From positions 1-20,582 of the forward strand of contig MGSU01000020.1 in NCBI GenBank assembly GCA_001799195.1: a stretch of DNA of 20,582 nucleotides, given 5' to 3'. Below, one piece after another: positions 1 through 15,455 of this stretch. The notes below the pieces were generated by a model. That model did no database searches. It saw nothing but the letters and a program-made list of their open reading frames with translations, and was not told the origin of the DNA. The DNA is from Deltaproteobacteria bacterium RIFOXYA12_FULL_61_11 (GTDB taxonomy: Bacteria > Bdellovibrionota_F > JAHFAK01 > YA12-FULL-61-11). Within the stretch, counting starts at the first letter, position 1. Every line of letters begins with the position of its first letter. The translations under genes were made by a program, and so were the position numbers.

Positions 1-2164
1 GCTCGATCCAATGTGGCAAGGGGTGGGACAGCAGCCGCTGGGCTTCGCCGGGTTCCAGGTCCTCGGTCTCGCCGAGCACGGATGCGGTCGTGCGCGCCTC
101 GCGGGCCTGCTCCTGCAGGCTGGCAACCACGCTCTCTACGGAGTCCTCCACCTTTTCGGGATTGAGGATCGTCTCGATATACAGCTCGTCGAACAGGTGA
201 CCCGCTTGGGCCGAGTCGAGGACGTCGCCGGTCTTGTCGATGCCGAACTCTTTGAAGATGATGGCGAGCTTCTGCTCCAGGACCTCCCGAACCCGGTGTT
301 CGACCGAGCCTTCGAAGACGAAGTTGACCGCGCGCACTGCATGGGTCTGGCCGATACGATCCACCCGGCCGATCCGCTGTTCGAGACGCATCGGGTTCCA
401 GGGGAGGTCGTAGTTGATCACCACGTGGCAGAACTGTAGGTTCAAACCCTCCCCGCCTGCCTCGGTGGAGATGAGGATGCGGGCTTCCTTGGCGAAGGCC
501 TCCTGGACCCGCTTGCGCTCCTCCATGTCCATGGAGCCGTTCAGGCAGACGACCGGGAAACCGCGCTCGGCCAGGAATCGCCGTAGCATCTCCTGGGTGG
601 GCACGAATTCGGTAAACACCAGCGTCTTGAGCTCCGGGTCGCCCTCTTCGGACTGGAGACGGTAGAGCCAGTCGAGCAGCGCCTCGGCTTTGGCATCCGG
701 TCCGAGCTGCTCACAGCGGGCTGCGGCCTCCAAGAGCAGCTTGACCTCAGCACGCTCGTTCTTGAGCGCCGTGAGACGGGTGCGGAGCAGTATGTCGATC
801 TGCTCCTGGCCGTCCAGGTCATGGAAAGATTCTAGTTCCTGGTTCATAGTTTCTGGTTCATCGAACAAACCAGTAACCAGAGACCCGGAACCAAGAACTT
901 CGAGGCGGCGTGCCAGCGTCGTCTTGATGGCGCTTGTGCTGGAGACCACCAGGCGCTGCATCAGGATCATAAGAAAGCCGATGTAGCTCCGCTTCTCCCG
1001 CAGGGCCTGGTTGTAGCCTTCGCGGACGTATTCCGTGACCGCCTCGTAGAGGAGCTGTTGACTGCGGTGACGCTCCTCCCAGGAGACCGGAGCAAGCTGT
1101 GTGTGCCGGGGCTTGAACAGCGGATTTCCATTGGCATCGATGGCGCGGCGTTTTTCGGTGCGGATGACATGCGGCTGGACACGCTCGCGGGTGACGCTGC
1201 TGACGTCCGGGAACTCCTGGGCGTCGATCAGGGAAACCAGCCGATGAAAGGCGTCGGTCTTGCCCTGGTGCGGGGTGGCCGAAAGCATCAGAAAATAGGG
1301 TGCGGCCTCGGAGAGTCCCTGACCCAGTTTGAAGCGGGCCACTTGGTCGGTGCTGCCGCCGAGACGGTGCGCTTCGTCCACGATGACCAGGTCCCAGCCG
1401 GCAGAGATCAAGTCCTCGAATCGTTCGCGGTTGTGCTCGCCTACCTGGGCCGCGGTCCAGCCACGCCGCTTGTCCAGGGGTTTGACCGAATCCATCGGCA
1501 CGACCACCTGGGAAAACATTGTCCAAGGGTTGGCAGGTCCCTGGTCCCTGGTCCATGGTCTATGGTCCCTGGTCTCTGGTTGTTGTTTCCAACCAGGAAC
1601 CAGGAACTCCGAACCAGGAACCGCCGAAATGCGACTGAGCATTTTGAGGTCGTCTGGTACGACAAGCTGGAAAAGTTCGTTGAAGTGGGTCCGCATTTCG
1701 GCCACCCACTGGCTCACCAAGCCCTTCGGGGTGATGACCAGGGTCCGCTTGACCAGCCCGCGGAGCTTGAGCTCCCGCATGATGAGCCCGGCCTCGATGG
1801 TCTTGCCCAGGCCGACCTCGTCCGCCAGGAGATAGCGCACCCGGTCGTTGGCGATGGCGCGGGACAGGGCCCGGATCTGGTGCGGCAGCGGGATGACGGA
1901 GGACTCGATGGGTGCGAGCAGTACGTCGTGGGCCAGGGCGTCGGCAACTCGCGCGGCGGCAGCGATGTAGGCGATATCGTCCGGCGAGCCGGTGTCTGCG
2001 CTCTCCAGGGACTTGAGCCTGGAAGCCGGAATGCGGACCACGGAGTCGCGGCCGGGCAACCAGACGCGGCAGGTCGTCTCTCCCCAGAGTGTCTGGGTCT
2101 CGATAACCTGACAGAGCTGCCCGTGGTCGGGGGAATAATGCCATTGGCCATCATTCTGTTGCAT
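1..2164 (-). CDS. brxHII: BREX type 3 SNF2-family helicase BrxHII (3' end beyond window)
   Basis: Continuous reading frame from ATG at 2164 to the left edge (721 codons, no stop), so the C-terminus is missing. It is a superfamily 2 SNF2-type DNA translocase. Visible motifs are Walker A LADEVGLGKT (residues 113-122), motif Ia LVITPKGLVSQW, the DEAH box VIVDEAHRLGG (260-270), motif III LMLSATPHQGK, and the second RecA domain with ISTEAGGEGLNLQ and RIGRVDRIGQ. It overlaps the AlbA_2 gene upstream by 14 bases; an AAGGA sits 8 bases before this ATG, while an in-frame ATG at 2173 has no usable spacing. A SNF2-like helicase follows pglX in type 3 BREX, which supports the name; pglZ and brxA would come next. 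Two heptamer tracts lie in the coding sequence (residues about 181-210 and 420-444), the first between motif Ia and the DEAH box, and neither breaks the frame. A generic SNF2 helicase of another system is the alternative. Confidence 0.86.
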   Translation of the reverse strand, partial: MQQNDGQWHYSPDHGQLCQVIETQTLWGETTCRVWLPGRDSVVRIPASRLKSLESADTGSPDDIAYIAAAARVADALAHDVLLAPIESSVIPLPHQIRALSRAIANDRVRYLLADEVGLGKTIEAGLIMRELKLRGLVKRTLVITPKGLVSQWVAEMRTHFNELFQLVVPDDLKMLSRISAVPGSEFLVPGWKQQPETRDHRPWTRDQGPANPWTMFSQVVVPMDSVKPLDKRRGWTAAQVGEHNRERFEDLISAGWDLVIVDEAHRLGGSTDQVARFKLGQGLSEAAPYFLMLSATPHQGKTDAFHRLVSLIDAQEFPDVSSVTRERVQPHVIRTEKRRAIDANGNPLFKPRHTQLAPVSWEERHRSQQLLYEAVTEYVREGYNQALREKRSYIGFLMILMQRLVVSSTSAIKTTLARRLEVLGSGSLVTGLFDEPETMNQELESFHDLDGQEQIDILLRTRLTALKNERAEVKLLLEAAARCEQLGPDAKAEALLDWLYRLQSEEGDPELKTLVFTEFVPTQEMLRRFLAERGFPVVCLNGSMDMEERKRVQEAFAKEARILISTEAGGEGLNLQFCHVVINYDLPWNPMRLEQRIGRVDRIGQTHAVRAVNFVFEGSVEHRVREVLEQKLAIIFKEFGIDKTGDVLDSAQAGHLFDELYIETILNPEKVEDSVESVVASLQEQAREARTTASVLGETEDLEPGEAQRLLSHPLPHWIE
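831..903. repeat. heptamer inverted-repeat tract inside brxH
   Basis: Degenerate TGGTTCC-type heptamers on the left arm (about 831-870) are followed by complementary RACCAGN heptamers on the right arm (about 876-900), forming an imperfect hairpin. It is read in frame in the helicase between the two RecA domains and encodes GSGSLVTGL followed by EPETMNQE, the same pattern as the tracts in brxC. Confidence 0.8.
1534..1623. repeat. heptamer inverted-repeat tract inside brxH (RecA domain 1)
   Basis: Plus-strand units such as CCTGGTC, CATGGTC, TATGGTC and TCTGGTT are followed by complementary AACCAGG-type units, making an imperfect hairpin. The tract sits in frame in the helicase as residues about 181-210, encoding SEFLVPGW then QPETRDHRPWTRDQGP. 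It lies between helicase motif Ia and the DEAH box, where SNF2 proteins are normally compact, so it looks like an insertion. I checked the frame codon by codon through this stretch. Confidence 0.85.
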
Positions 2165-3410
2165 CCGATTCATCCTTGATGGCGGCAAACATGGTGAGCA
2201 GAAGCTCGGATTCATCAATCAGACGATAGACAGGACGTATACCCGAGAGTTTCTCGCTCTCATGCAGGATGATCGGAACCCCATCGCCTCTCTTTTCCAT
2301 AAAGGAGCCTCTACCAACATCTCCCACAGTTTCGGCAACATGAGTCTCCGCCAATAGGCTGGTGATAAGTTCGTTTCGGGTCGCCTGGCGCAGCGCCATG
2401 CTCTCGATAGTTACGGTGTTTGGCAATGCGCCAGGAGAGTATATTTCCATTCTGTCGTCGAAGATAAAGAATCTGATTTTCGATCCCGCAATACTGTAGT
2501 CGCGATGAGCAACGGCGTTGACGATGGCTTCGAATACCGCACGCGTGCTGAACTGTGGAGTTTCGACACGTTGCGGCGTCTTGGACGCAGCAACAATCTG
2601 ATTTAGCATCAGAAATGACATCGCTTGATTGATTTGAGCGTCAAGCGGGCCGCATATTTTCCTTGCGTCGACTTGATAATTGGAGTCCTGCCTTATGCCT
2701 CGGTACCGTACAGCTTCGATATAGGCACTGGTAAGGAAGCGTTCCGGTCTTTCGCTGCAGAGGAGGACACCTGCAACTGAGCAACGCAATGGCCCCCCTT
2801 CCTCGGTCGATAGCAGATTACGCTTCAACAAAACAACCTCATCCGGCTCGGTTGAGCGCGTGGTGTATCGGCGCCAAAGATTTTCCGCTAGATCGCCAAG
2901 GCTGGTTCCTGGAACCGTCTGCTCTTCGAAGCGGATCAATCGGGCCTGACTGCGTTGTTGGAAGAGTCGGGCAAGGTAATCCGGCGGTATCTTGCGTTTC
3001 GAGCTTCCCTGCCTATGGAAATAGCCTCCAGGACTCTCGTGAACGAATAGACTGCGCGGCACTTCCACCTTAAGGACGGCCCGCGGCATCCCGGCGCTGT
3101 CGGGTAGTTCGATGCGGAAAGAGCGAAACACAACCGAGGGTTTGACACTGTCGGTGCATACTTCAAAGATGAGACGCTCCACCGCTTCCAATCTCTCCAC
3201 CGGAATACCGTCTATATCCCGCGTTTTGTCGTCCACACCAAGTACAAGAACGCCGTCGTGCGTGTTGGCGATTGCTGCAATCTCGTCTGCAAGATCTTCA
3301 CGGGCGGGAGCGGACAGGCGGTCGCCTTTGAAGCGGACGGTCTTCAATTCCAGTGATGTATCTTCTCCGAGACGGATTTTTTGAAGTAACTCTTCCCGGC
3401 TGTCAAACAT
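2151..3410 (-). CDS. AlbA_2 (Schlafen-like) domain, GHKL-type ATP-binding protein
   Basis: 419 residues. The N-terminal half matches the AlbA_2/Schlafen AlbA family: ELKTV (21-25), then LADEIAAIANTHDG (40-53) and VLVLGVDD (54-61). The C-terminal half carries a GHKL-like ATPase signature with EAIVNAVAHRDY (294-305, the N-box) and FDDRMEIYSPGALP (317-330, the G1-type motif). Proteins of this architecture are annotated as ATP-binding proteins or putative transcriptional regulators; some Schlafen-like relatives are nucleases acting on RNA in defence. The start ATG at 3408-3410 overlaps the end of the PHP-ATPase gene by 8 bases, and the stop lies inside the start of brxH, so its translation is probably coupled on both sides. 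It is not a core type 3 BREX gene. Its base composition is lower in GC than brxC or the ends of pglX, suggesting separate acquisition together with the PHP-ATPase. The function here is unknown. Confidence 0.86.
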   Translation of the reverse strand: MFDSREELLQKIRLGEDTSLELKTVRFKGDRLSAPAREDLADEIAAIANTHDGVLVLGVDDKTRDIDGIPVERLEAVERLIFEVCTDSVKPSVVFRSFRIELPDSAGMPRAVLKVEVPRSLFVHESPGGYFHRQGSSKRKIPPDYLARLFQQRSQARLIRFEEQTVPGTSLGDLAENLWRRYTTRSTEPDEVVLLKRNLLSTEEGGPLRCSVAGVLLCSERPERFLTSAYIEAVRYRGIRQDSNYQVDARKICGPLDAQINQAMSFLMLNQIVAASKTPQRVETPQFSTRAVFEAIVNAVAHRDYSIAGSKIRFFIFDDRMEIYSPGALPNTVTIESMALRQATRNELITSLLAETHVAETVGDVGRGSFMEKRGDGVPIILHESEKLSGIRPVYRLIDESELLLTMFAAIKDESDATE

Positions 3411-6171
3411 GGCGCCCCTCCAATACTATTCGGCGATAGCGTTGCTCGAAAGCCTTTTCACCGCCTTCCATGACGTTACAGATGGTTTGCCTTACCGTTT
3501 TCTCCTGAAGGCACCCGACAGCCTCCGGTTGTGTCTGCCCGGCCCGCACGGTCAATGCGACAACCAGTTCGGCGTCGCCGTTCACAACTATATTGGCGTT
3601 GTGTGTAACGACGATGACCTGGCGTCGCCGCTTGACTTCACGCAGTTGGGTGACGATCAAATCGTAGATCAAGTGGTTGTCGAGATCGTCTTCCGGTTGA
3701 TCCAGAATGAGCGGCTCCTCGCCATAGGAAAGCAGAAAAGCCAGCAGCGCGGCTGTCTTCTGCCCCGGAGAACCCTCATGAATGGGACGGAACGTTTGCC
3801 GGTCGGACGATGTGCTGTACTCGACATCCAGAGAGTCTTCCGGAAACCAAAGGTCAATCCTATCCAACGCCTCCGGCGGTAGTTTGGCGAGGTGAACAGC
3901 AAATCGCCTGTCGGCCACTTGTGCCTGCGATGGGTTGCTGGAAATATCTCTGATCTTTTGTTTCAACTCCGCCAAACGTTGCTCGATGGCAGCCGTATCC
4001 TGACAACCCCGGTAGAGGTTTCCCAGCAACCCTTCACTGTCGGGCGCCCCGATATCCTTCTCGAACCCACCGGTGTCGCGTTGAATCAGCCGACGCAACT
4101 CGGCTTCCACTGTCTCTCTCGCGCCATAGGGAACAACGCGGATTTGCACATACGAATTGCCTTTCAATACATCGTCAAGAAATGTCCGCCTTTTTCCCGT
4201 GATCTCTCGGCGCAACGATGCCCTTCGCTCAAAGCATTCGACGGCTTGCTTCTCCAAATCCACAATCTGTTTCTTGCGCCCTTCCAACTCCTTTATCTTG
4301 CTATAGATTTGCTGGCGCCGCTGAACGAGAACACCGTAACCCGACGGATTGGCCACGCCCTCGCTTTCAAGGCTCGCTTGGAGAGTCGTATAATCTAGAA
4401 TTGCCCTATCCGTTGCGACCTTCCATGCGGACGTGTCCCTTTCCTTTTTCCACTTGGCAACCACACCGTCTGCCTTCTCTGCCAGCGACTTGATCTGATT
4501 CGCTATCTCTTCAACCGACTTGGTCGTCTGCTGAACTAGTTCAAGCAGTTGCACGTTCTCTGGGCTGTCTGTGTCGAAACTCGTTTCGTCCATATTTTCC
4601 GGTCGGATTTCCTGAGCCATCTCGCGCAAGCGGCGTCCGGCATCGACCAACCCAGGCTCCCAAGACTCGACCGCCTGGAGTTGACGGCGCCTTTTCTGCA
4701 AAGTTTTGAGAGTTTCGGCGTGCCCGGACTGCTCGAAGATCGCCAGCTTGCGCTTCACGTCTTCCAGTTCGCCTTTGAGCCTCGATTCCTCCGAGAGCCC
4801 CGTCTCAATCTCGCGAATCTTGGCACGTAACGACAGGTACTGGTTCTCTTCGGCGCTCAAGCGCTGCTTCCAGGAGGCATAGTCTACCTCCGGCGCATCG
4901 TTGATGATGCTCAGTAAGGCGAGTGGAGTGCGCGCCAATTGAAATATCTGTTTCTGACTGTACATCCGTGCAGGGAACCTTTGTCGAATATCACCTTCGG
5001 CTCGTCTCCACCCATCGGAGGTCCGCTCCTGAATGGAATCCAGCGATCCTCTTGGGTTCCATTGAATGCGATAGGACGATCCATCTTTCCGATAAACGAC
5101 CCGAATCTCGGCATCGTTGGTCAGCAGGCCGCTTTCGTTGCGGTCCTCGTACACCTGGCGATACTTCTCAAAATCAGTTTTCAAGGCATCCGGCAGCTCA
5201 TCGTCGCGTCTCAAAGCGATACGAAGGAACTCGATCAAGGTCGATTTCCCTGTTCCTCTGCCGCCGATAATCGCATTCATCCATGGATTGAGACGGAGTT
5301 CGAAGGCGGTCGGCCTTCCCATATAGCGCGCATTCTCAACCTCGATTGACTCGATCACCATATCAGCATGTCGATTCGGATCCTGAGAAACTGCATCCGA
5401 GCGGACCACTGAAAGCGGGCCATCGAGAAGGGCCAATCGAAGCCCCTCAAAGCTGGGGGTGCCCATCTTTACCCAGGAGAATCGGCTGCCTGGAAACTTC
5501 TGACCCGGATTTCCTGTTGGATGATGAGCGTCGGAGCCGACAAGCTCGGTCCACGGTTGTTTGCAGGAAGAGTATGCCGCCGGCATCATAGAACCAGCAT
5601 CCATCAATTCCATGGCAAAGAAATGCTCGCAGTCGAGGGCTTGCTGCAGCGTCGGGCCGGTTAATTCGAAAAGGCCCTTTGCTTCGTCCACATGGGCAGG
5701 GATAGCAATGCCCCCCCCCCTAATCTTTGTGATTTCCTCGGCTACTTCGTTGAGGGTTCTACTGGTCACAGAATTGCATAAACCCTTGGCTCCATTATAC
5801 CTAATGGCTACCAGCAGGGTGTCAATATCGGATGTATTTTTCTCCTTGTCCAAAATGGCAAGGACATGAATGTTCCCATGAACTGAAATCTCAACGCCCG
5901 GGAAAATGTGTATCGGCCGAAAGCCTGGTTGTTGTTCCCTTTCCATGAAGGCATATTCGATCTTGAGCGTGTCTATCCATGCGCCTGTGTTGTGGTCCGT
6001 GATAGCGACGCAATCAATGCCAGCATGCATGTAGTCAAGCAGCCATTCTTTCGGCGTGCGGGTCTTCAACGCAGCCTGATCCGCGCCCCTACCATAGTCA
6101 TCGGATTTAGGTGTGTGGGTGTGGAAGTCGAACTTCCACCATCGTGCACCGTTCCATTTCCAGTCTGTCAT
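3403..6171 (-). CDS. PHP domain plus SMC/Rad50-like ATPase (TrlF/Ppl-like)
   Basis: 922 residues. The N-terminal PHP phosphoesterase domain has metal-ligand motifs HTHTP (17-21), ITDHN (57-61), PGVEI (91-95), an isolated His160 and GSDAHH (212-217). An ABC/SMC-type ATPase follows, with Walker A GGRGTGKS (303-310), a long charged, probably coiled-coil middle (about 450-780), Walker B LILDQPEDD (821-829) and a switch-like VVTHN (855-859). This is the layout of TrlF-family AAA-like ATPases and of the single-gene Ppl (PHP-like) defence protein, so a nucleotide-gated nuclease or phosphoesterase is a reasonable inference. The start overlaps the pglX stop in an ATGA (6168-6171); the stop overlaps the next gene. 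It is an accessory gene rather than core BREX. A G10 run (plus-strand C10 at 5711-5720) lies in codons for RGGG just before His160, and a one-base slip there would destroy the protein. Confidence 0.86.
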   Translation of the reverse strand: MTDWKWNGARWWKFDFHTHTPKSDDYGRGADQAALKTRTPKEWLLDYMHAGIDCVAITDHNTGAWIDTLKIEYAFMEREQQPGFRPIHIFPGVEISVHGNIHVLAILDKEKNTSDIDTLLVAIRYNGAKGLCNSVTSRTLNEVAEEITKIRGGGIAIPAHVDEAKGLFELTGPTLQQALDCEHFFAMELMDAGSMMPAAYSSCKQPWTELVGSDAHHPTGNPGQKFPGSRFSWVKMGTPSFEGLRLALLDGPLSVVRSDAVSQDPNRHADMVIESIEVENARYMGRPTAFELRLNPWMNAIIGGRGTGKSTLIEFLRIALRRDDELPDALKTDFEKYRQVYEDRNESGLLTNDAEIRVVYRKDGSSYRIQWNPRGSLDSIQERTSDGWRRAEGDIRQRFPARMYSQKQIFQLARTPLALLSIINDAPEVDYASWKQRLSAEENQYLSLRAKIREIETGLSEESRLKGELEDVKRKLAIFEQSGHAETLKTLQKRRRQLQAVESWEPGLVDAGRRLREMAQEIRPENMDETSFDTDSPENVQLLELVQQTTKSVEEIANQIKSLAEKADGVVAKWKKERDTSAWKVATDRAILDYTTLQASLESEGVANPSGYGVLVQRRQQIYSKIKELEGRKKQIVDLEKQAVECFERRASLRREITGKRRTFLDDVLKGNSYVQIRVVPYGARETVEAELRRLIQRDTGGFEKDIGAPDSEGLLGNLYRGCQDTAAIEQRLAELKQKIRDISSNPSQAQVADRRFAVHLAKLPPEALDRIDLWFPEDSLDVEYSTSSDRQTFRPIHEGSPGQKTAALLAFLLSYGEEPLILDQPEDDLDNHLIYDLIVTQLREVKRRRQVIVVTHNANIVVNGDAELVVALTVRAGQTQPEAVGCLQEKTVRQTICNVMEGGEKAFEQRYRRIVLEGRHV
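5711..5720. repeat. C10/G10 homopolymer inside the PHP-ATPase gene
   Basis: Ten consecutive C on the plus strand, read as G10 in the coding strand (A, ten G, then C). As sequenced it keeps the 922-residue frame open, encoding Arg-Gly-Gly-Gly at residues 151-154 of the PHP domain. Poly-G tracts of this length inside genes are classical slipped-strand phase-variation sites, but they are also frequent sequencing-error positions. Confidence 0.9.
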
Positions 6172-8987
6172 GAGTCACCTCCTGAACGCGTCACCGCCTG
6201 GTCGTACCACATGAGGAGCTTGGGGTCTTCCTGGAGGACGTTTTCGGGGATCTTGCGGGCCACGGTGATGATGGTGGCGTAGTCGCGCTCTTGCCAGGCT
6301 TTTTTGAAGCCGGCGCGGACGGCCTCGAGGCGGAAGACCTTGAGTTTGGGTGAGCGGCCGCTCGCCCCTACAGCGCGGTAGTCCTCAAATTCCCGGAGCA
6401 GCGACCGCTCGCGCAGCTTTTCCAGGTCGCCGGCCTTGTTGGGATCGGGCACGTACCAGCGGTCCTTGCCCTTGGCGCGCAGGCTCTCGTCCTCCTTGGG
6501 CAGGTTGCGCAGCTCCTTCCAGTTGGAGGAGAGATACGCGTGGATCTGCTCGGGCACCAGGCCCCTACCGTCGTAGCAGAGGAAGTTTTGTTCCAGCAAC
6601 TCGGAGAGCTCCAGCGGCTTTTCGTGCTTCTGCCAGCCGCCGATACCTCTGAGGAATTGTGGATGAATATCCTGAAATGTTTGCGGTTTTGCCTTCAGCA
6701 GGTTTTGCAACCATCGTATTGCCGAGAGCTCATCCACAGGGGCAAATTCTGGCAGCGCAATATCCTGCACCGTCATGCGTTTCTGGTCGTATTCGGCCAC
6801 CTGCTCAGGCAGGAAGTACATCCCATCCCGCTCGGAGAACCGTTGGACCAGCCCGGCATAAAACTCCGCCGCGGACAAAGGTAGGGTGACGCCGCGCTGG
6901 ACGTGAAAGGCCACCAGGCGGTCGAAGAGGAGATAATTCTGCCGCTCGGCGAGGACCTCCGCTTGACCGTCTTTCGAGACGAAACGCGGAAGTTGCTTCA
7001 GGTGGGTACGGACGAAATCCCAGACTCCCTTTGCTGTTCCGGCTTCTAATTTGAACCGGTCCTCTAGGCCTCCGTTGGGTTTGTAGCAAGAAATTATCAA
7101 GTCTTGCTTAGTTGCACCGGAGATATAGTATTCTTGATATACAGTGCCCTTCTGTTTGTCTAAGGTGTGCACATCAGCGATAACAAATCCCGCATCTCCG
7201 AGAGATGTCTGGATCGCGTTCCAGATTGAGCTCTTCGAGTTATGAAATTCCATCGTTAACCAGCGTCCTGGCTTCAGCACTCGGTAGAACTGCTTCAAGC
7301 AACTTGTAAGCAGCGATCGGTAAGTGGACTCATCTTTATGCTGTGTGTCATTGACGACTGCTTCGGAACAATTGTTCGTAACGCAGCCAAGCCAACTTTC
7401 TGTCAAGAAATTCATCTCGGAGTACATAATGTTCGCCCCAAAGGGTGGGTCCACAAAGATATAGTCGACGCTCGCATCGGGGAGACGATCGATCCCTGTG
7501 GCTGATTCCGTGGAAAGGCAGTACCGTCCCTGAAACTGTGCAATAGCGGAAAAAGCTCGGATGATAGCCCGGCCCTTTGACCGGGCTAGCTCAATCATGT
7601 TCTGTTCGGCGAAGAGACTAGGGAAGTAGAGGCAATTCGTAAGGGGTCCGTTGATGCGACCGTTGGGGTTGTGCTTGTTGATCACGAACCGGTTACCTCG
7701 GAACCCATTACGGGAGATAAATGACGTTAAAACGAGCCTCATGCGTCGGCTATTGTCCGAAGAGCCAAAGCGGTTCCAGAGGCTTGCAAGAGCGAGCAAC
7801 TGTCTTGGATTGTAAAAGTGGTGAACGTGGGTTACTCCCGAATGATACCCCGCTCGGTATACGTCGCCCCATGGCTCGTCCTTAAACATCATCTTCGCGA
7901 TGGGCGGATGCAACTCTGCCGCCTGTTTCAGGCACTTGGCGACGACATCGGAATCTCGTCCATTTGCCTCGCGCTCGTGACCTCGGTTGTGAAGTACGAA
8001 AACCGGCACTTGGCGAGGCTGGGAGATCGTTCGTTGAAGAAGCGGATCGAAAAATGTGGTCATTCGATGTTCGAGACGCCCCTTGCTGTTCTTCGACCCG
8101 CAATGTGGGCACGGGACAGGATCAATCTCTCCAATTACCCGCTTTACCCCATTCCCCCAGAAGACAATGTCGCGGGAGCAATTTGGGCAAATGAATACAT
8201 CGGACCACACTGTGAGGCTTATCTCATCGGATTTGGCTTGCCCATCAGAGAACGAATAGGCCCATTGGAGATCAGTGGCTACCTCCTCGATGCACCGTTT
8301 AAGTTCCAATTCGAACGCACTGACATTGATAGGGACGTTGTAGTTATGGGCGATGAAAGTCGCGAACGGCGACAGGTCGAAGAGTAGTGGCAGGCGGGCA
8401 CCCCACTGCGCGCTAGGCATCTCTGCCTGGAGAGTTGCCCGCAGTTCCGCAGGTGGGTTTGCGCACATCTGTGCAGCTACGCCAGTCATGCCTGTTCCAC
8501 AAAAGCCATCGAGAACGATGTCCCCAGGGGATGTATAGTGAAGGAGAAACCGCATAATGGCTTGGTGCGGCACCTTGGTGTGGTAAGAGTGTGCGGTATA
8601 CACTGGATCACTCTTCCCTTCGCTCACATCCGCAGCGAAAGGCTCGCAATTGTATGGCATACTCGGATCGTAAGGCGTGCCGTAGTGCTTGATGAAGTCG
8701 GCAATGAACGGGTTCGGGCAGGCGGTGTAGTACGGCGGGTCGGACAACGCCAGGAGGTCCTCGTCCGAGCCTATGGGGAAGCCCTCGATCTTGCGGAACT
8801 CGGGGTCCTTTAGCTTCTCGGCCAGGAGGCCGAGGAAATGCTTGCGCCGCTCCTCGTCGTTCGGGAAGGTCATGCCGAGACAAGAGACTGGTCCCTGGTC
8901 CCTGGTCCCTGGTCCATGGTCCATGGTTTTGGGTTCCAGGTTGGGGAAAAGGGGCATGGTTTCCGGTTGCTGGTTCCTGGTTGTCAT
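6168..8987 (-). CDS. pglX: BREX type 3 adenine-specific DNA methyltransferase PglX (PglXI type)
   Basis: 939 residues. N-terminal SDPPYYTACPNPF (82-94); SAM-binding motif LDGFCGTGMTG (159-169); a zinc-ribbon with CPNC (267-270) and CPHC (293-296); catalytic motif IV VDPPFGANIMYSEM (512-525). This is the DPPF-bearing large amino-methyltransferase layout of BREX PglX proteins, expected to methylate adenine in host DNA to mark self. The start ATG at 8987 overlaps the stop of the four-helix-bundle gene (ATGA), and the stop overlaps the PHP-ATPase start in the same way. The first about 38 residues are encoded largely by a heptamer tract and look foreign; the conserved protein probably begins near Met39 (8873), which has no clear ribosome site. 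The central part (about 7050-8250) is markedly poorer in GC than both ends, suggesting mosaic origin. Assignment to BREX rests on sequence motifs plus neighbours. Confidence 0.88.
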   Translation of the reverse strand: MTTRNQQPETMPLFPNLEPKTMDHGPGTRDQGPVSCLGMTFPNDEERRKHFLGLLAEKLKDPEFRKIEGFPIGSDEDLLALSDPPYYTACPNPFIADFIKHYGTPYDPSMPYNCEPFAADVSEGKSDPVYTAHSYHTKVPHQAIMRFLLHYTSPGDIVLDGFCGTGMTGVAAQMCANPPAELRATLQAEMPSAQWGARLPLLFDLSPFATFIAHNYNVPINVSAFELELKRCIEEVATDLQWAYSFSDGQAKSDEISLTVWSDVFICPNCSRDIVFWGNGVKRVIGEIDPVPCPHCGSKNSKGRLEHRMTTFFDPLLQRTISQPRQVPVFVLHNRGHEREANGRDSDVVAKCLKQAAELHPPIAKMMFKDEPWGDVYRAGYHSGVTHVHHFYNPRQLLALASLWNRFGSSDNSRRMRLVLTSFISRNGFRGNRFVINKHNPNGRINGPLTNCLYFPSLFAEQNMIELARSKGRAIIRAFSAIAQFQGRYCLSTESATGIDRLPDASVDYIFVDPPFGANIMYSEMNFLTESWLGCVTNNCSEAVVNDTQHKDESTYRSLLTSCLKQFYRVLKPGRWLTMEFHNSKSSIWNAIQTSLGDAGFVIADVHTLDKQKGTVYQEYYISGATKQDLIISCYKPNGGLEDRFKLEAGTAKGVWDFVRTHLKQLPRFVSKDGQAEVLAERQNYLLFDRLVAFHVQRGVTLPLSAAEFYAGLVQRFSERDGMYFLPEQVAEYDQKRMTVQDIALPEFAPVDELSAIRWLQNLLKAKPQTFQDIHPQFLRGIGGWQKHEKPLELSELLEQNFLCYDGRGLVPEQIHAYLSSNWKELRNLPKEDESLRAKGKDRWYVPDPNKAGDLEKLRERSLLREFEDYRAVGASGRSPKLKVFRLEAVRAGFKKAWQERDYATIITVARKIPENVLQEDPKLLMWYDQAVTRSGGDS
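8881..8979. repeat. heptamer tract forming the 5' end of pglX
   Basis: Plus-strand CTGGTCC repeated four times, two ATGGTCC/ATGGTTT units and further CTGGTTC-type units near 8946-8979. Unlike the tracts in brxC and brxH, all units have one orientation. Read on the coding strand it gives TRNQQPET and HGPGTRDQGP, the reverse-strand heptapeptide of the repeat, directly ahead of the recognisable methyltransferase sequence. Confidence 0.8.
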
Positions 8988-9373
8988 TTGTATTTTTGAC
9001 CTTTCAGGTTAGATCGTTTGAGATAGTTCATGAAACCGGCTATCAACTTTTTGGTGGAAGAAGCTGTTGATCTTATGGAATCAAACTGTTCCTGATTGAT
9101 ATAGCCTTGGTCGAGGGCCACATAAAGCTGGGCTTCAACTTCACCCGCAGATCCTTTGGCTATTGCGAGAAATTGCGAAAACTCCTTGGAGCCACCCCGT
9201 TCGAAACCTTCTGCAATGTTGGACATGATCGACACAGCGGCCCGCCGTATCTGATCGCGAAGGCCAAAATCTTTGGCAAAAGCGTCTTTACCCGAGCAGG
9301 AATAGACCGCATTGGTCAATTCCCGGGCCTTTTGCCACGCCTCAACGTCCTCGAATTTCTGTATCGTCGCCAT
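8984..9373 (-). CDS. four-helix-bundle protein (S23/IVP family)
   Basis: 129 residues with the family hallmarks: FEDVEAWQKARELTNAVY near the N-terminus, LRDQIRRAAVSIMSNIAEG (38-56), GSKEFSQFLAIAKGSAGE and a helix of the EAQLYVALDQGYI type. The family (TIGR02436-like, first seen in 23S rRNA intervening sequences) folds as an antiparallel four-helix bundle and is related to the Avd accessory protein of diversity-generating retroelements; its molecular role is mostly unknown, probably nucleic-acid binding or oligomeric. A good ribosome site, AAGGAAG, lies 4 bases before the ATG and directly follows the 13-unit heptamer array. The stop overlaps the pglX start (ATGA), so the two are likely translated in step. 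No rRNA lies nearby. It is not a recognised BREX component and, with repeat tracts on both sides, may have arrived as a small mobile unit. Confidence 0.92.
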   Translation of the reverse strand: MATIQKFEDVEAWQKARELTNAVYSCSGKDAFAKDFGLRDQIRRAAVSIMSNIAEGFERGGSKEFSQFLAIAKGSAGEVEAQLYVALDQGYINQEQFDSIRSTASSTKKLIAGFMNYLKRSNLKGQKYK

Positions 9374-9384
9374 ATTTCTTCCTT

Positions 9385-9475
9385 AACCATGAACCATAAA
9401 CCATGAACCATAAACCATGAACCAGAAACCAGGGACCATAAACCATTGACCAGAAACCAGGGACCAGAAACCAGA
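9385..9475. repeat. 13-unit heptamer array (RACCAKN) between nuclease and four-helix-bundle genes
   Basis: Thirteen consecutive 7-base units with no slip: AACCATG, AACCATA, AACCATG, AACCATA, AACCATG, AACCAGA, AACCAGG, GACCATA, AACCATT, GACCAGA, AACCAGG, GACCAGA, AACCAGA; a decayed unit follows to about 9480. It fills most of the 161-base gap between the DUF1016 gene stop (9535) and the four-helix-bundle start (9373), and ends right at the latter's ribosome-binding site, so it forms part of its leader. Positions 2-5 (ACCA) are invariant; variation is confined to the remaining positions. Confidence 0.95.
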
Positions 9476-9534
9476 AACCCAATCCTTGGTCACTCCCGAG
9501 CGGATAAGAACCATTTCTGATCCCATGAACGGTA

Positions 9535-10647
9535 TCATGATTCCGCTTCCCTGACCTGTTCTTCAATAAAACGCTGCATCTCCTCCTTCTTGGGAAGTTC
9601 AAGCTGGTACTTGGAAACAAAAAGGCCGTTGTCCATGCCGGCCAGCGCGTATTCCACCAGTGTGCTGTCCCTCTGGGTGCAAAGCAGGATGCCGATAGGC
9701 GGATTGTCTCCCTCAGCCATCATGTTCTTTTTGTACCAGCTCACATAGGTGTTGAGCTGGCCGATATTCTCATGGCTGAAGTGTTCGAGTTTCAGCTCGA
9801 CCAGCACGTGGCAATTGAGAACGCGGTGATAGAAAACAAGGTCCACGAAGTTGTGCGTATCTCCGATCAGAATTCGCTTCTGGCGGGCTTCAAAACAGAA
9901 CCCATGACCCAGTTCGAGCAAAAAATCCTGAATTTTATCCAAGAGTTGATCTTCCAGATGGGATTCGCTCATGACTTCGCTTGGCTTTAACCCAAGGAAT
10001 TCGAAGACGTAGGGATCGCGTATTGCCAGTTTCGGGTCGGCAGCTTCGGCGCCCTTTTGAGCCAGCTCCGCCAGCTTTTTCTTGTCTTTGGATAAGCCTG
10101 ATCGCTCATAGTACAGGCTGGCAATCTGTCTTTTGAGTTCCCGGACGGACCAGTTTCCCCGGATGCATTCGATTTCGTAGAAAGTACGTTTGAGCTCATC
10201 GTCAACGGCGACAATCAGTTCAAAATGGCTATAGGCCAGGTTGGCCAGGAGCTTTTCAGGTGCAATGGGCAAAAGTGCGGACACTGTCCGCACTTTTGGG
10301 CTAACAAGGGTTTCAGGAAGCAAGTGGCGGGATTGTGCGGGCACCGTCAGCACAATCTGCGGATAGGCACGGTAAAAAGCCAGATAGTTGTACAACTGCC
10401 GGCGTCCGGTATTGCTGACCTTGTGCCTGCGTAGCTCCTTGGAAAGCTCGCTGAGCAGGCGGTCTCCATAGCTCGCCCGATCCGAACCACGAAGCTCGAA
10501 CTCAGCGATGTAGGCGCCGATCAACCAGTTTCGCATCGTAAGACTGATATTGACCGCTCGACCAGCCTGGGCCGCCAGTTCTATATGCGCCTGCCGGATC
10601 GTCCCGACAAGCTTTTCAAAATTCCATTCGGGTCTTTCCGGGTTCAT
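9535..10647 (-). CDS. DUF1016 N-terminal domain plus PD-(D/E)XK nuclease (YhcG family)
   Basis: 370 residues, the usual length for the family. The N-terminal DUF1016 domain (about 10-190) shows NWLIGAYIAEFE, GDRLLSELSKEL and the typical YLAFYRAYPQI and SHFELIVAVDDELKRTFYEIE segments. The C-terminal nuclease domain shows the PD-(D/E)XK core: Asp269 in FVDLVFYHR, Glu284 and Lys286 in VELKLE, then GQLNTYVSWY. Family members are predicted Holliday-junction-resolvase-like nucleases, often carried within restriction and other defence loci. The start is 9 bases after the brxC stop, so it is probably in the same transcript. Codons 116-126 contain a perfect 29-base palindrome (10270-10298). No catalytic residue appears lost. 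Its substrate and its role within BREX are not known. Confidence 0.94.
   Translation of the reverse strand: MNPERPEWNFEKLVGTIRQAHIELAAQAGRAVNISLTMRNWLIGAYIAEFELRGSDRASYGDRLLSELSKELRRHKVSNTGRRQLYNYLAFYRAYPQIVLTVPAQSRHLLPETLVSPKVRTVSALLPIAPEKLLANLAYSHFELIVAVDDELKRTFYEIECIRGNWSVRELKRQIASLYYERSGLSKDKKKLAELAQKGAEAADPKLAIRDPYVFEFLGLKPSEVMSESHLEDQLLDKIQDFLLELGHGFCFEARQKRILIGDTHNFVDLVFYHRVLNCHVLVELKLEHFSHENIGQLNTYVSWYKKNMMAEGDNPPIGILLCTQRDSTLVEYALAGMDNGLFVSKYQLELPKKEEMQRFIEEQVREAES
10270..10298. repeat. perfect 29-base palindrome inside the DUF1016 nuclease gene
   Basis: Fourteen-base arms (CAAAAGTGCGGACA and its exact complement) around a single central base, entirely within coding sequence and encoding PKVRTVSALLP. 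A weaker related motif (GTGCGGGCACCGTCAGCAC) follows at 10336-10354. Confidence 0.9.
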
Positions 10648-10656
10648 TCGCGGTTT

Positions 10657-13600
10657 CTACTCCAAGACAATCCGGACTTTGCCGGGTTCCTTGCCCTTGG
10701 TAAGCCCGTCGAGGTATTCCTCGAACCTCTTCCTCATCTCTGCCGGGGTGGCCGGGGAGCCGCCCGAAAGCAGGGCGTCGCGCAGGTCGGCGATCTTGAC
10801 CGAGACCTTGGTGAGCCCGGAAAGCACCTCCTGCAAGGCATGAATGAAGTCTTGGTCCAGGTTGTCCGGCAGAGTCCGCTTCTTGATAAAGCCGTCCACC
10901 AGTTTGCGCGGCTCAGGCTTGAGCAGGCTCAGGTTGCCCTTAGTGGTCGGGTCTTCGAGGTTGGAGAGCAGCGCCGCAGTCCATTCGGCGATCATTTTGT
11001 CGAGTTGATCGTCGAGCTGTTGGAGGGCAACGGCGGCGTTGATCGGTCCCTGGTTTATGGTTCCTGGTTCCTGGTTAGCCAAACCAGAAACCAGAGACCA
11101 GGAACCAGTAACCGTTTCGGCCGCAGGCCGGAAGCCGCAGTGCAGGCAGACCGGCGAGTCCGCCAGTTCCTGTTCAGTGAGTAAAAAACAGCTTATCAGA
11201 TCACCGAGGCGTTTCTGAAAATCTGTTAATTGTTGACGCGGCATCAGTTCGACGGTTGCAAGTTTTTTCAAAAACTCCATCCGTTCATCAACGGATAGCT
11301 GGGCCTTGCGCTTGTCCTCGTTCACGCCGAGACGCGCTTTGGCGTGCATCGATAGATAGGCCAGAATATAGGCTTTCTTGAGGTCACCGAGCTTGCGCAG
11401 AATCTCCTGGCGGAGATTCGGTTTCTGGTTTCTGGTTTTTGGTTCCTGGTCGGTTAAACCAGAGACTAGGAACGAGGAACCAGCAACCGCCGCGAGGACT
11501 TCAGTCCGAACGGCGTTCATCTTGTCGACCAACTCGTGGCCGGGTGGCAGGACAGCCTCGGCGGTAGAGAGGTACGAGGCTGTGCCACCGAGGTTGCTCA
11601 CCAGTTCCTCAAGTGATCTGAGCTCGGCAAGGGAATTGAGCCCGTCCCGATGGGCCGTTACTTCCGAGGTGTTATAACGGAAGTTTTTGAGTTTTCCGGC
11701 CGAATTGAACGCCTGTAAAGATTCGAGGAAGGTTTTACAGGCGTTCAGTTTCTGGTTCACGGTTTCGCGTTCCTGGTTTGAACCAGAGACCAGAGACCCG
11801 GAACCAGGGACTAAGTTTTTGCCCCAGAAGAACAGCCCGGTCTGAAGGCTCTGCTGCATGAGCACCAGCTCCTCCACAGTGGTGGTAATCGCCTTTTGCA
11901 GTTCCTGGACAGGTTCGTCCTTGCTCTGGGTGACCAATTGGGCCATGCCCGGCGTGAGCCCGAGTAGTTCGAAGAGCGCCTTGAGCGCCGGCAGGTTCCA
12001 GTCCTTGGGCCGCTCGAGGTGCTTGAACTGGGCCAGCTCGTCGAGGCCGGTTCCGGCGAGTTGCGGCAACCCTGTGGCATCGAACTTCTTGCCCGGGATG
12101 GAGAGGACCACTTCGCCGGCATAGATCAGCGCGGCCAGCACGACCACGGCCCATTCGGGTTCGAGCCGGAGCGATTGCGGCGCAAGGTATTCCACGCCGA
12201 GAACCTCTAGGATCAGCTCGGAGCGGTTGACCACCTGACCGGGCCCCTTCTTCTTGGCGAGCTCGAGGATGTGCTTGGCATACTTCGACCGATACGGATC
12301 GAGCCGCTCGCCGTCGAGAAGCTCCAGGGCATCCAATACCGCGGTGGCCTGCTTGGTACGGTTCTGGCCGGCGAGGGTGCGCAGAGCGTCCTGCGCAGCC
12401 TGGGCCCGGTTCGCTCCCGTGATGAGCACCGAGAAGAACGGATAATCAGGGGCCTGGTCCTGGAAGGTAGTCGCCAGACAAATGCCCGCGATGGTGTTCA
12501 CCAGGTCCCGGAAGTTGATACGCTCATGGGAGCCAATGCCGGAAAGCTCTCGGATGGATTTTCCCTTGGCCCAGTCGGTGAGCGACTTGGAACGTCCCTG
12601 GTAGGTGACCTCGAAGGCGGTGGTCATGTTCTTCTGAAGCCATTGCACGAGATCGCGCAGGAAGTTCGAGGCCTTGGATTCGTAGGTTGACTTGGCGTGA
12701 CCCGAAGCGGTGGCTGCAAGATCCAGGGCAGCGGCGTAGCTTCGAAGCGCGGTGCGGAATACTTCGTCCGTGTTCGTCAGGCGCAGGAACAGCTCCTCGG
12801 GCTTCTTCTCGTCTTTGAAATGTGGCGGATCGAAGGGCTGGAGGAAATAGAGGTAGAAGTCCCGAGGCGGTACCGCCGTGGAGCGTTCGTTGGGCGCGCC
12901 AAAAAAAAGGTATCCTTGGCGTGCAGCCTTGTGCTCCCGCCATTCAAGTTCGTACTGCCAGATCTTGTAGCCCGTCACGTAGGTCTGGTCCGTGCATTCC
13001 AAGACTCGCCGGAGTGCCTCATAGTAATAGCGGTCGAGCTGGGAGGCATCGAGGCTTTCGGCTCGTTTCTCGATCAGTGCGTCGAAATCGTCGGTCTTCT
13101 TGAGGTCCAGGTAGTATTGGCGGTTATCCAGGTTGGATGAGATGAATTGGCCGTTTACCGTCTTGTGGATTTCCCGCAGGACGGTCTCCACCTGGGAAAG
13201 CAGGTCGTCGGCCGGATCGCCGCCCAGTTCCTCGATGCCCGGCTGGAAGAGGCACAACCCGTCGCGCAGTTCCTCCGCCGTCGCGCCCAGGGTGGCGTAG
13301 ATGTCGCCCGTCGTAAGCCGGTGGACCGACAGCGCATGGATGAGCTGGGTCGCCATGGGTTTGTAGGCCGGGCGGGTGAAGGCCTGTTGGATCCGCGACT
13401 CAAGCACCATGCTGCAATCGATAACCGCCTTGATATCGGGAACGGCGCGGAAGGATGGGTTCTCGCGCAGGGTTGTCCAGTAACCGTCATAGGCAATGAC
13501 CCCGGGCCGGTCGTCGGGTACGTTCTGGCCGAGCAGCTTCTTCATGGCCAAGGACAGGGTCTTGAGTACCTCGCGCTTTTCCACCGCGGTGACCCGCTCG

Positions 13601-14514
13601 AAGGTGTCGATGTAGTCGGGATGCACCGGGAAGAGGCGCACGAACTCGTCCATGCGTTCGTTCATGCGGCCGTAGAACTTGGCGAAGGGGGTCAGGTACT
13701 CTCGGATGTTCACCTGCTGGTCAGCGGTCTTCTTGAGCAGACGCTCGGCCACTACGAACTTGACGTCCTTGCGGGCGATGAGGATCTGCTCGAAGCGGTC
13801 TTTCACCCGACGGATGCTGTCGGCCACAAAGGAGAAGCGTGGGCTGTCGAAAATGGCTTCCTGGACGCCGGCGATGAAGCGAAAGCGCAGGTCCTTGCAG
13901 ACCTCGCCGAGCTCGCGCAGGAAGTTGAGGTCGAGGATCAGCTCCTGGTCCTTCCGGGTGCGCAGGTAATCGAGCAATTCGTCTACCACCAGGAGCACAC
14001 CGTGGTCGGGATACACCTCGTGGAAAGCGGTCATCATCTCTTCGAAGGGGCGCTTGTTGCTTACCACTTTGTCCGCGGGCGGGAAGGAGTAAGCCACGCC
14101 CATTTCGGCCAGGTGCTCCTCCAGTTCGGCCACGAGGATATCGCGGAGCGTCATGGTGGTCGCGCCGATCTCGGTTCGGACCACCTTGAAGCGCCCGCTG
14201 ATCTTGCCCGCCGCAAGGGCCACGCTCTTGTCGTTCAGATGCGTTGCGAGCTCGTCGTTTTCAGCCAGGGCGGAGATCACGGACATGAGGTGAGACTTAC
14301 CGGTGCCGTAGTTGCCGACGACCAACAGCCCTTTGTTGTCCATGGGCTGATCAAACTGAAGCTGAGGAACGACGAGGTTCACCAGCTTCTCGGCCATCTC
14401 TTTGGAGATGACATAGGTCTGGACAAGCTGCCGGGCAGCAGCGGCCTCATCGGCGTCCCGTAGTTGGACCACGGACTCGATAGGCTCGAACTGGATGAGG
14501 TCTGAATACTTCAT
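10657..14514 (-). CDS. brxC: BREX type 3 P-loop ATPase BrxC
   Basis: 1285 residues from ATG at 14514, chosen because AAGGAG lies 8 bases upstream and [18 protein letters not shown] matches the expected N-terminus; a longer frame begins at 14574 but would overlap brxF. It carries Walker [12 protein letters not shown] (65-75) and Walker [12 protein letters not shown] (174-184), in the large DUF6079-like ATPase family that defines BrxC of type 3 systems. The protein is thought to be a DNA-associated ATPase in the BREX complex. The C-terminal third has long helical, coiled-coil-like stretches and a CLHC motif near residue 1125. Three heptamer hairpin tracts are embedded in frame in this third (residues about 900-923, 1008-1032 and 1133-1157). 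It follows brxF after 22 bases and precedes the DUF1016 nuclease by 9. A T8 run on the coding strand (12901-12908) is a minor slippage site. Confidence 0.92.
11044..11114. repeat. heptamer hairpin tract in brxC (C-terminal copy)
   Basis: Left arm of TGGTTTA/TGGTTCC units to 11076, short AGCC loop, right arm of AACCAGA/GACCAGG units to 11114. In frame in brxC, coding [10 protein letters not shown] then [11 protein letters not shown]. The arms are complementary over most of their length. Confidence 0.88.
11419..11489. repeat. heptamer hairpin tract in brxC (middle copy)
   Basis: Left arm TCGGTTTCTGGTTTCTGG and onward, loop near CGGTT, right arm AAACCAGAGACTAGGAACGA to 11489. In frame, coding [10 protein letters not shown] then [11 protein letters not shown]. 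The peptide pattern matches the copies at 11044 and 11746. Confidence 0.86.
11707..11746. repeat. 13-base inverted repeat in brxC abutting a heptamer tract
   Basis: Arms GAACGCCTGTAAA (11707-11719) and its exact complement (11734-11746) flank a 14-base loop inside coding sequence ([15 protein letters not shown]). The right arm ends exactly where the next heptamer tract begins, so the two structures are contiguous. Confidence 0.85.
11746..11813. repeat. heptamer hairpin tract in brxC (N-proximal copy)
   Basis: TTTCTGGTTCACGGTTTC and onward on the left arm, TTTGA loop, then ACCAGAGACCAGAGACCCGG and GAACCAGGGAC on the right arm. In frame in brxC, coding [12 protein letters not shown] then [11 protein letters not shown]. 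Confidence 0.86.
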
Positions 14515-14536
14515 ACGAGCTTCTCCTTGCGCGCCT

Positions 14537-15040
14537 TCAGTCCGGTCTGACCGTTTCCGAGCGGCGCTGTGCATCTACTGCAGGAACGATTATTGCCTGT
14601 GACCTTTGGTATTGCCGATGCTCGGGATGTCCGGGCGCCGCGTACCTAAGTTTCTCGTCGTCCAGCTCTCCACTCCAGGTTGCTACCACCGTGCGATTGC
14701 GGCTCAGACCCTGAAGCAGGCGAAGGGGATCTTGCTGAAGTTCGGTCGAGAACAGGAGCTCGGTGTTGTCGAGGAGCAGCACGTCGCCGGAGTGGCTGTG
14801 AACGAGCTCGCCGAGCAACCTCGGAGCGCGAAGCGCCCGTTGCTTGGTGGTCAGCTCGAGCAGCCGCTTGGACAGCTCGAGGTTGACGTTGACCAGGGGC
14901 CATCCGCGTTCCTGGGCGAGCTCACGAAGGGCTGTGGTCTTACCAGTTCTTGTAGGTCCGACGACCAAAACAAGTCGGTGATAGGCAAGTAGAGCCGGCT
15001 CGATTTTTTCGAGAATTCGGGAGGTCAGAGGTGCAGCCAT
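14537..15040 (-). CDS. brxF: BREX type 3 P-loop protein BrxF
   Basis: 167 residues from ATG at 15040; a longer frame starts at 15079 but overlaps the EVE gene, and GAAGAGG precedes this ATG. It has Walker [11 protein letters not shown] (26-35), a Walker B-like [12 protein letters not shown] (86-97) and, near the end, VVATWSGEL followed by [12 protein letters not shown], which I recognise as typical of BrxF. BrxF is the small P-loop ATPase at the head of type 3 BREX loci and is a marker for this type. It starts 10 bases after the EVE stop and ends 22 bases before brxC, consistent with one transcript. Length and motifs look intact. Confidence 0.92.
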
Positions 15041-15050
15041 GTTTACCTCT

Positions 15051-15455
15051 TCACCCCAACTCCCCCACCAACCACTCAAAATCCTTCGGGGTGAGTTTCA
15101 TAAAACCCCCGTGGCACATCAGGAGATTGGCCGGTGAGGCCGACTTCTCGAAGGGTGCGAGCCCCCAAAAGCTCTCCAACCCTTCCTTTACTTTGTTGGT
15201 GTCCTCGAACTTCACCTTGCAGCGCCAGGGATAGACCTGGTCGTCGGCAAAGATCAGGGTGTCCTCCTCGAACGGGTCACTCACCAGGGTGCCGTACCCG
15301 CAAAAGCGTTTGACCTGAGAAATGTAGCAGACGAAGCAGTCGCCCTTTTTCAGCTCGGCAAAGCGCTTCTTGTGGGCCTCGCGTACGCCGAGGGTCTGGT
15401 GTTTTTTAACCTTCTCAAAGGTGTCGGGGCGAAAGAGAAAAAGCCAGTGGTTCAC
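15051..15455 (-). CDS. EVE domain protein
   Basis: 134 residues from a GTG at 15455, chosen because NHWLFLFRPDTFE is the normal start of the EVE fold and CGAGG lies 6 bases upstream; a TTG at 15482 would add nine residues. Family features: HWLFLFRP (3-10), then ...HQTLGV, the central RFAELKKGDCFVCYIS (β-strand plus turn), GYGTLVSDPF, and PWRCKVKFED. EVE is a PUA-like fold whose characterised members bind modified bases, for example 5-methylcytosine or 5-hydroxymethylcytosine in DNA, or modified RNA. Here it lies 10 bases upstream of brxF with a possible promoter just before it, so it is probably the first gene of the BREX transcript. It is not a standard type 3 component; an inferred role is sensing modified bases. 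Four to five Cys are present but no clear metal motif. Confidence 0.86.
   Translation of the reverse strand: MNHWLFLFRPDTFEKVKKHQTLGVREAHKKRFAELKKGDCFVCYISQVKRFCGYGTLVSDPFEEDTLIFADDQVYPWRCKVKFEDTNKVKEGLESFWGLAPFEKSASPANLLMCHGGFMKLTPKDFEWLVGELG

Follow-up and report, generated by a model that had tools for sequence, protein, structure and literature searches.

The window, which is one entire contig of 20.6 kb, carries brxF, brxC, pglXI and brxHI together, and these PADLOC model matches place the locus in the type 3 BREX class (Table 1); pglZ and brxA would be expected past the contig end. The MAG to which it was assigned comprises 4.64 Mb and is 87% complete, and because the window is a complete contig, its membership of the MAG bin is unproven. 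At the far end of the window (18151-20580), a protein with DxDxDG-type (thrombospondin type 3-like) repeats and SUMF1-like domains was recognised by eye in the translation.

Table 1 Genes and heptamer arrays in the window (positions of the window; all features on the minus strand)
Feature	Position	Strand	Description	Support
brxH (BrxHI-type helicase)	2..2218	-	runs off contig	PADLOC PDLC02500, 1240 bits
Tract A	831..899	-	solo hairpin within brxH (BrxHI helicase); encodes LGSGSLVTGLFDEPETMNQELE	RNA fold z -3.96
Tract B	1533..1623	-	solo hairpin within brxH, motif I to DEAH motif	RNA fold z -5.18
pglX (PglXI-type methyltransferase)	6168..8987	-		PADLOC PDLC02541, 1284 bits
Tract C	8881..8983	-	array in first 36 codons of pglX; right arm of full IVP element	
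IVP / S23p four-helix-bundle gene, 129 aa	8984..9373	-		PF05635 E 1.6e-36; PDB 2gsc E 4e-18
Tract D	9385..9480	-	intergenic; left arm of IVP element, inverted relative to C	
brxC (DUF6079)	10657..14529	-		PADLOC PDLC02482, 2014 bits; PF19557
Tract E	11041..11113	-	solo hairpin within brxC; +63 nt relative to most orthologues	RNA fold z -8.13
Tract F	11419..11487	-	solo hairpin within brxC; +39 nt net	RNA fold z -3.84
Tract G	11748..11815	-	solo hairpin within brxC; +27 nt net	RNA fold z -4.16
brxF	14537..15079	-		PADLOC PDLC02496

Against an expectation of 0.03 from shuffles, none of which came close, the window contains 26 matches to the pattern TGGTYYNTGGTYY; the exact heptamer TGGTTCC gave a weaker signal (10 against 3.4 expected). 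The TGGTYYNTGGTYY matches group into seven arrays, A to G. The original prediction had described a spreading repeat family with six tracts, two in brxH, one in pglX and three in brxC, of which five were inverted repeats that add hairpins to the mRNA. A spreading family is supported, and the six tracts lie where they were placed with all frames open; the inventory nevertheless missed array D and the PF05635 gene. Tracts A, B, E, F and G are indeed inverted repeats, and their mRNA strands fold with z values of -3.8 to -8.1, mostly into a series of short stems with small internal loops between them, about one stem per heptamer. Array D is the longest, with 13.6 units, and tract C has a lag-7 match of 0.96. 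When the family was mapped genome-wide with a three-unit heptamer pattern, all 18 matches in the 4.64-Mb MAG fell in the window contig and none elsewhere. Other hairpin-like sequences were also recorded in the window. A single-unit palindrome, GGTTCCTGGAACC, at 2903-2915 in the AlbA_2 gene is the sole trace of the heptamer family in an accessory gene; a perfect 14-bp palindrome (CAAAAGTGCGGACA / TGTCCGCACTTTTG) at 10270-10298, in frame within the DUF1016 gene, represents a different type of in-gene hairpin; and a 17-bp inverted repeat at 11703-11750 adjoins tract G and overlaps conserved brxC codons.

The five solo tracts encode peptides that fit the pattern GSxxLVxG...QxPxTxxQ or come near it. 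The common pattern that had been noticed is thus largely present, but it arises automatically from the repeat. In a heptamer array each of the three frames comes round once per 21 nt, and TGGTTCC accordingly yields the cyclic heptapeptide GSWFLVP in any of the three frames and the reverse, GGAACCA, yields GTRNQEP. Because this translation is automatic whichever frame is read, no selection at the peptide level is required to account for the pattern. About half of all possible heptamers would be stop-free on both arms.

Arrays D and C enclose the IVP gene, and together they form a full element, D-IVP-C, situated between DUF1016 and pglX in the BREX island. Its PF05635 gene is the only copy in the MAG and is absent from the solo hairpins A, B, E, F and G, while the TGGTTYN unit of the element is common to these five hairpins in brxC and brxH. 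The longest arrays flank this small IVP gene, and the earlier suggestion that the repeat predates the accessory genes is unsupported.

The flanks of IVP genes were examined in a main set of 58 genes from BREX-carrier genomes, with 120 nt scanned on each side, and in a hold-out of 59 genes from other genomes in two further phylum samples at identical settings. The main set showed a self-similarity peak at lag 7 (0.61 on the left and 0.59 on the right, against 0.38 in far flanks) with echoes at 14 and 21, and the hold-out gave 0.57 and 0.54 against 0.39. With array-calling thresholds that we set without tuning on an independent set, an array was found on at least one side of 35/54 genes in the main set and 33/55 in the hold-out, chance being about 4-5% per flank (and lag); approximately 40% of IVP genes have no clear array at these thresholds. 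Both arms were clear in 21 main-set genes and were mostly inverted copies of one unit. The inverted similarity of a gene's own arms was 0.66 compared with 0.46 for mismatched pairs, and 18/21 genes ranked in the best tenth; the corresponding hold-out values were 0.67, 0.45 and 13/15. The heptamer unit itself varies from one IVP element to another. A pair of copies at separate places in the same genome (L116 and L131) was 93% alike over 410 nt, and the identity stopped at the arrays. No transposition was observed, and neither an empty site nor a target-site duplication was found, duplications having been sought by eye at L116 and L131, two copies only. The outer flanks of an element were no more complementary than mismatched flanks, giving no indication of a palindromic target beyond the arrays, and the long open frames inspected offered no clear example of an IVP gene lying in frame within a larger gene. 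As a separate observation, of the IVP loci L117 and L106 one has a group II intron match and the other an Acido-Lenti-1 RNA match.

Arrays also occur without the gene. Sampled stretches of IVP-rich genomes contained 33 lag-7 arrays in 669 kb (49/Mb), compared with two in 688 kb of IVP-less genomes (2.9/Mb; p = 1e-8), and other lags gave 0-4 arrays in the same stretches. No IVP gene was found within the sampled stretches of the IVP-rich genomes, and in 23 of the 33 solo arrays, mostly from the two genomes G008 and G019, the unit resembles an IVP-flank unit from the same genome. Only one of these 33 arrays lies inside a long ORF, although 64% of random positions do. The BREX loci differ: with the window left aside, 14/17 arrays that do not flank IVP genes lie inside long ORFs, and the ORFs identified are BREX core genes. 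The original prediction that BREX core genes are favoured agrees with this contrast (p = 1e-8), which calls for a matched survey because the genomes sampled differ between the two sets. IVP genes are present in 6/80 BREX loci and heptamer arrays adjoin all six. The link between arrays and IVP within BREX loci is weaker (8/22 against 3/24 loci, p = 0.09; per kb, p = 0.02). Units within a locus are more similar to each other than units from different loci (0.63 against 0.49), which exceeds every shuffle.

The insertion sites were compared across 80 BrxC loci from many phyla, and length gains were taken relative to the modal orthologue length. The three net gains in brxC are each a multiple of three, as had been anticipated. 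E alone, however, is a clean insertion; at F and G some native sequence has been replaced as well. At site E the short modal length is seen in 63/76 rows and the insert in four; besides the window, inserts of identical length occur in L042 (Planctomycetota), L045 (Desulfobacteraceae) and L070 (Coprothermobacterota), and the version of the unit differs in each. Orthologues from other phyla share the length of the insert at this position with other residues and heptamers, which agrees in part with the outcome that the original prediction had named as refuting it. Other heptamers are found at sites F and G in L038, L039, L042, L045 and L054, the length at site F being unchanged in L039 and one residue less in L042. 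Site B of BrxH is a loop of variable length among orthologues and also holds arrays in L031 and L074, and residues similar to those at site A are present in L063 and, less closely, in L041. All five solo sites recur in other phyla with different heptamers, and L042 and L045 each contain several different heptamers within a single locus. A single ancestral insertion at site E followed by vertical descent was considered and rejected, because its four carriers occupy dispersed positions in the BrxC phylogeny (four changes, at least three forced). The BrxC of the window resembles the other site-E carriers only at residues 1121-1185 and elsewhere mostly resembles L026 and L022, and this confinement suggests that lineages have exchanged patches of sequence. 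In a predicted model of the BrxC C-terminal part (531 residues, mean pLDDT 88.7), G, F and E form the three main low-confidence inter-helix loops; the added peptide loops that had been envisaged thus coincide with regions predicted to be flexible.

Several further observations concern the same genes. An identical 35-nt heptamer array is present in the brxC of a planctomycete MAG (L042:12176) and of a spirochaete MAG (L098:12257), which suggests recent exchange. BrxC site E has an insert of two residues in L030 and L040, and in L030 the underlying DNA, TCCCGAGAAATCGGGA, is a small hairpin. In the window and in several orthologues, the heptamer hairpins have a short GC-rich palindrome immediately on their upstream side, TTCCGGCCTGCGGCCGAA at site E and GGACTGAAGTCC at site F.

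The design of the full element recurs in ribosomal RNA genes. Sporomusa ovata has four IVP copies inside 23S rRNA genes, as judged by matches to an LSU model, and these are accompanied by inverted arrays; L114, L130, L138 and L141 are the comparator IVP loci inside 23S rRNA. A 23S-like copy in Desulfofustis (L144) resembles the Sporomusa rRNA loci in sequence and matches them in its inverted-array design. In Coxiella, the intervening sequence (IVS) has heptameric repeats before the S23p ORF in strain-variable number, for which no general explanation was given, and the S23p protein of Xanthomonas is a pentamer (PMC4990558). The 23S rRNA IVSs of Coxiella, Leptospira and Sporomusa resemble the element of the window in having a PF05635 gene between inverted stem-forming arms and heptameric repeats adjoining the ORF (PMC4990558), whereas the window copies lie in BREX genes or between genes, outside rRNA, and its solo copies are translated. 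No association of IVP with heptamers beyond the Coxiella IVS was found described in the open-licence literature, and a prior description elsewhere is possible.

Other families of small repeats share single features with these arrays. The Rickettsia palindromic elements are in-frame palindromes within protein genes. The tracts of the window likewise are short palindromic inserts that keep the frame open, but they are set apart as tandem heptamers linked to IVP with a unit that varies among genomes. The solo tracts are comparable to MITEs in being short gene-less hairpins whose termini are shared with a gene-bearing relative, although that relative here encodes the IVP four-helix bundle and no transposase. 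Dependence on a separate protein family recalls the small palindromes of the REP/RAYT system, except that the heptamer arrays flank IVP and not a Y1 transposase, Y1_Tnp matches lying elsewhere in the genome. The STRR heptamers of cyanobacteria are tandem 7-nt direct repeats and are mostly intergenic. The same holds for the TAACTGA repeats of Beggiatoaceae, which are alike in being tandem 7-nt direct repeats and differ in being mostly intergenic direct repeats; the text of the paper makes no mention of S23 or four-helix proteins (PMC4679880).

Taken together, the tracts are probably MITE-like solo copies of IVP elements, a widespread class of hairpin elements, that are tolerated or kept in BREX genes. 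In this reading the full form is a small PF05635 gene (IVP/S23p, an Avd-like four-helix bundle) between two inverted arrays of degenerate heptamers, and the short form is a hairpin made of the arrays only, with no gene. IVP may bind the repeated stem, with about 5 bp and a 2-nt internal loop per unit, either as RNA or as single-stranded DNA, and could help the arrays to be copied elsewhere, possibly together with an enzyme of the host or of Y1 type. Within genes, only stop-free hairpins that land in flexible loops would persist. IVP is not known to have a nuclease or polymerase. Y1 transposases are possible helpers, their association with IVP being weak (p = 0.017). A reverse transcriptase was rejected as the partner of IVP: RVT_1 had no match in the MAG of the window or in the IVP- and array-rich G019, both of which may be incomplete, and the association of reverse transcriptase with IVP was not significant (p = 0.08). 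A retro-route in cis is unlikely given this absence from both MAGs, incomplete as they are.

The hairpins within genes may instead be kept because they aid BREX, for example as cleavage points in the long mRNA for RNase III or under the control of IVP. Such a benefit would fit the excess of in-ORF arrays in BREX loci over other genomic stretches, the recurrence of sites across phyla and the strong folding of the hairpins; however, most orthologues do without them, as the counts at site E illustrate, and flexible loops would also explain the tolerance, and we consider this benefit unlikely as the explanation. A local microsatellite grown by slippage and hairpin template switching, with the IVP gene as a nearby passenger, appears rather improbable. 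Although the arrays are degenerate and variable in length, no mobilising enzyme is evident and the family is restricted to one contig of the MAG, such an origin has to contend with seven separate arrays sharing one unit within 11 kb, with inverted arrays of gene-specific units flanking IVP genes in many genomes, and with an array density 17 times greater in IVP-rich genomes.

It is very unlikely that the tracts are phase-variable contingency tracts, in which gain or loss of heptamers shifts the frame and toggles BREX genes. A change of 7 nt is a frameshift, tract C at the start of pglX has three identical consecutive units, and heptanucleotide repeats elsewhere reportedly show phase-variable behaviour, which we counted in favour of this mechanism. 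The arms are nevertheless inverted, the length at site E is exactly equal in four lineages of different phyla, comparable arrays also occur in rRNA and between genes, and slippage should be low because most units differ from their neighbours. The least convincing alternative is a system like a diversity-generating retroelement, in which an Avd-like IVP aids a reverse transcriptase that rewrites target sites with the local heptamer; the resemblance of PF05635 to Avd (PMC10053308) and the lineage-specific units at given BrxC sites, whose replacement at nearly constant length at site F would follow from such rewriting, speak for it, but the lack of RVT_1 matches and of a significant association noted above, and of any visible template and variable repeat pair, makes it highly improbable.

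The interpretation of the tracts as solo copies of IVP elements can be extended, tentatively, to a more general proposal. IVP/S23p genes and heptamer hairpins may possibly constitute one general class of mobile element, of which some rRNA IVSs are a special case and whose spread involves no nuclease or reverse transcriptase encoded by the element itself; in type 3 BREX genes, its gene-less form might overwrite the same loop codons again and again in different phyla and perhaps be kept there for regulation. The 23S rRNA IVSs were described decades ago, and neither their movement nor the role of S23p has a generally accepted explanation. Our results tie them to a class of elements found between and within genes and identify the hallmark of that class: heptamer arrays in inverted orientation whose unit is particular to the individual element. 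They would also account for a puzzling set of in-frame inserts within the genes of a major phage-defence system.
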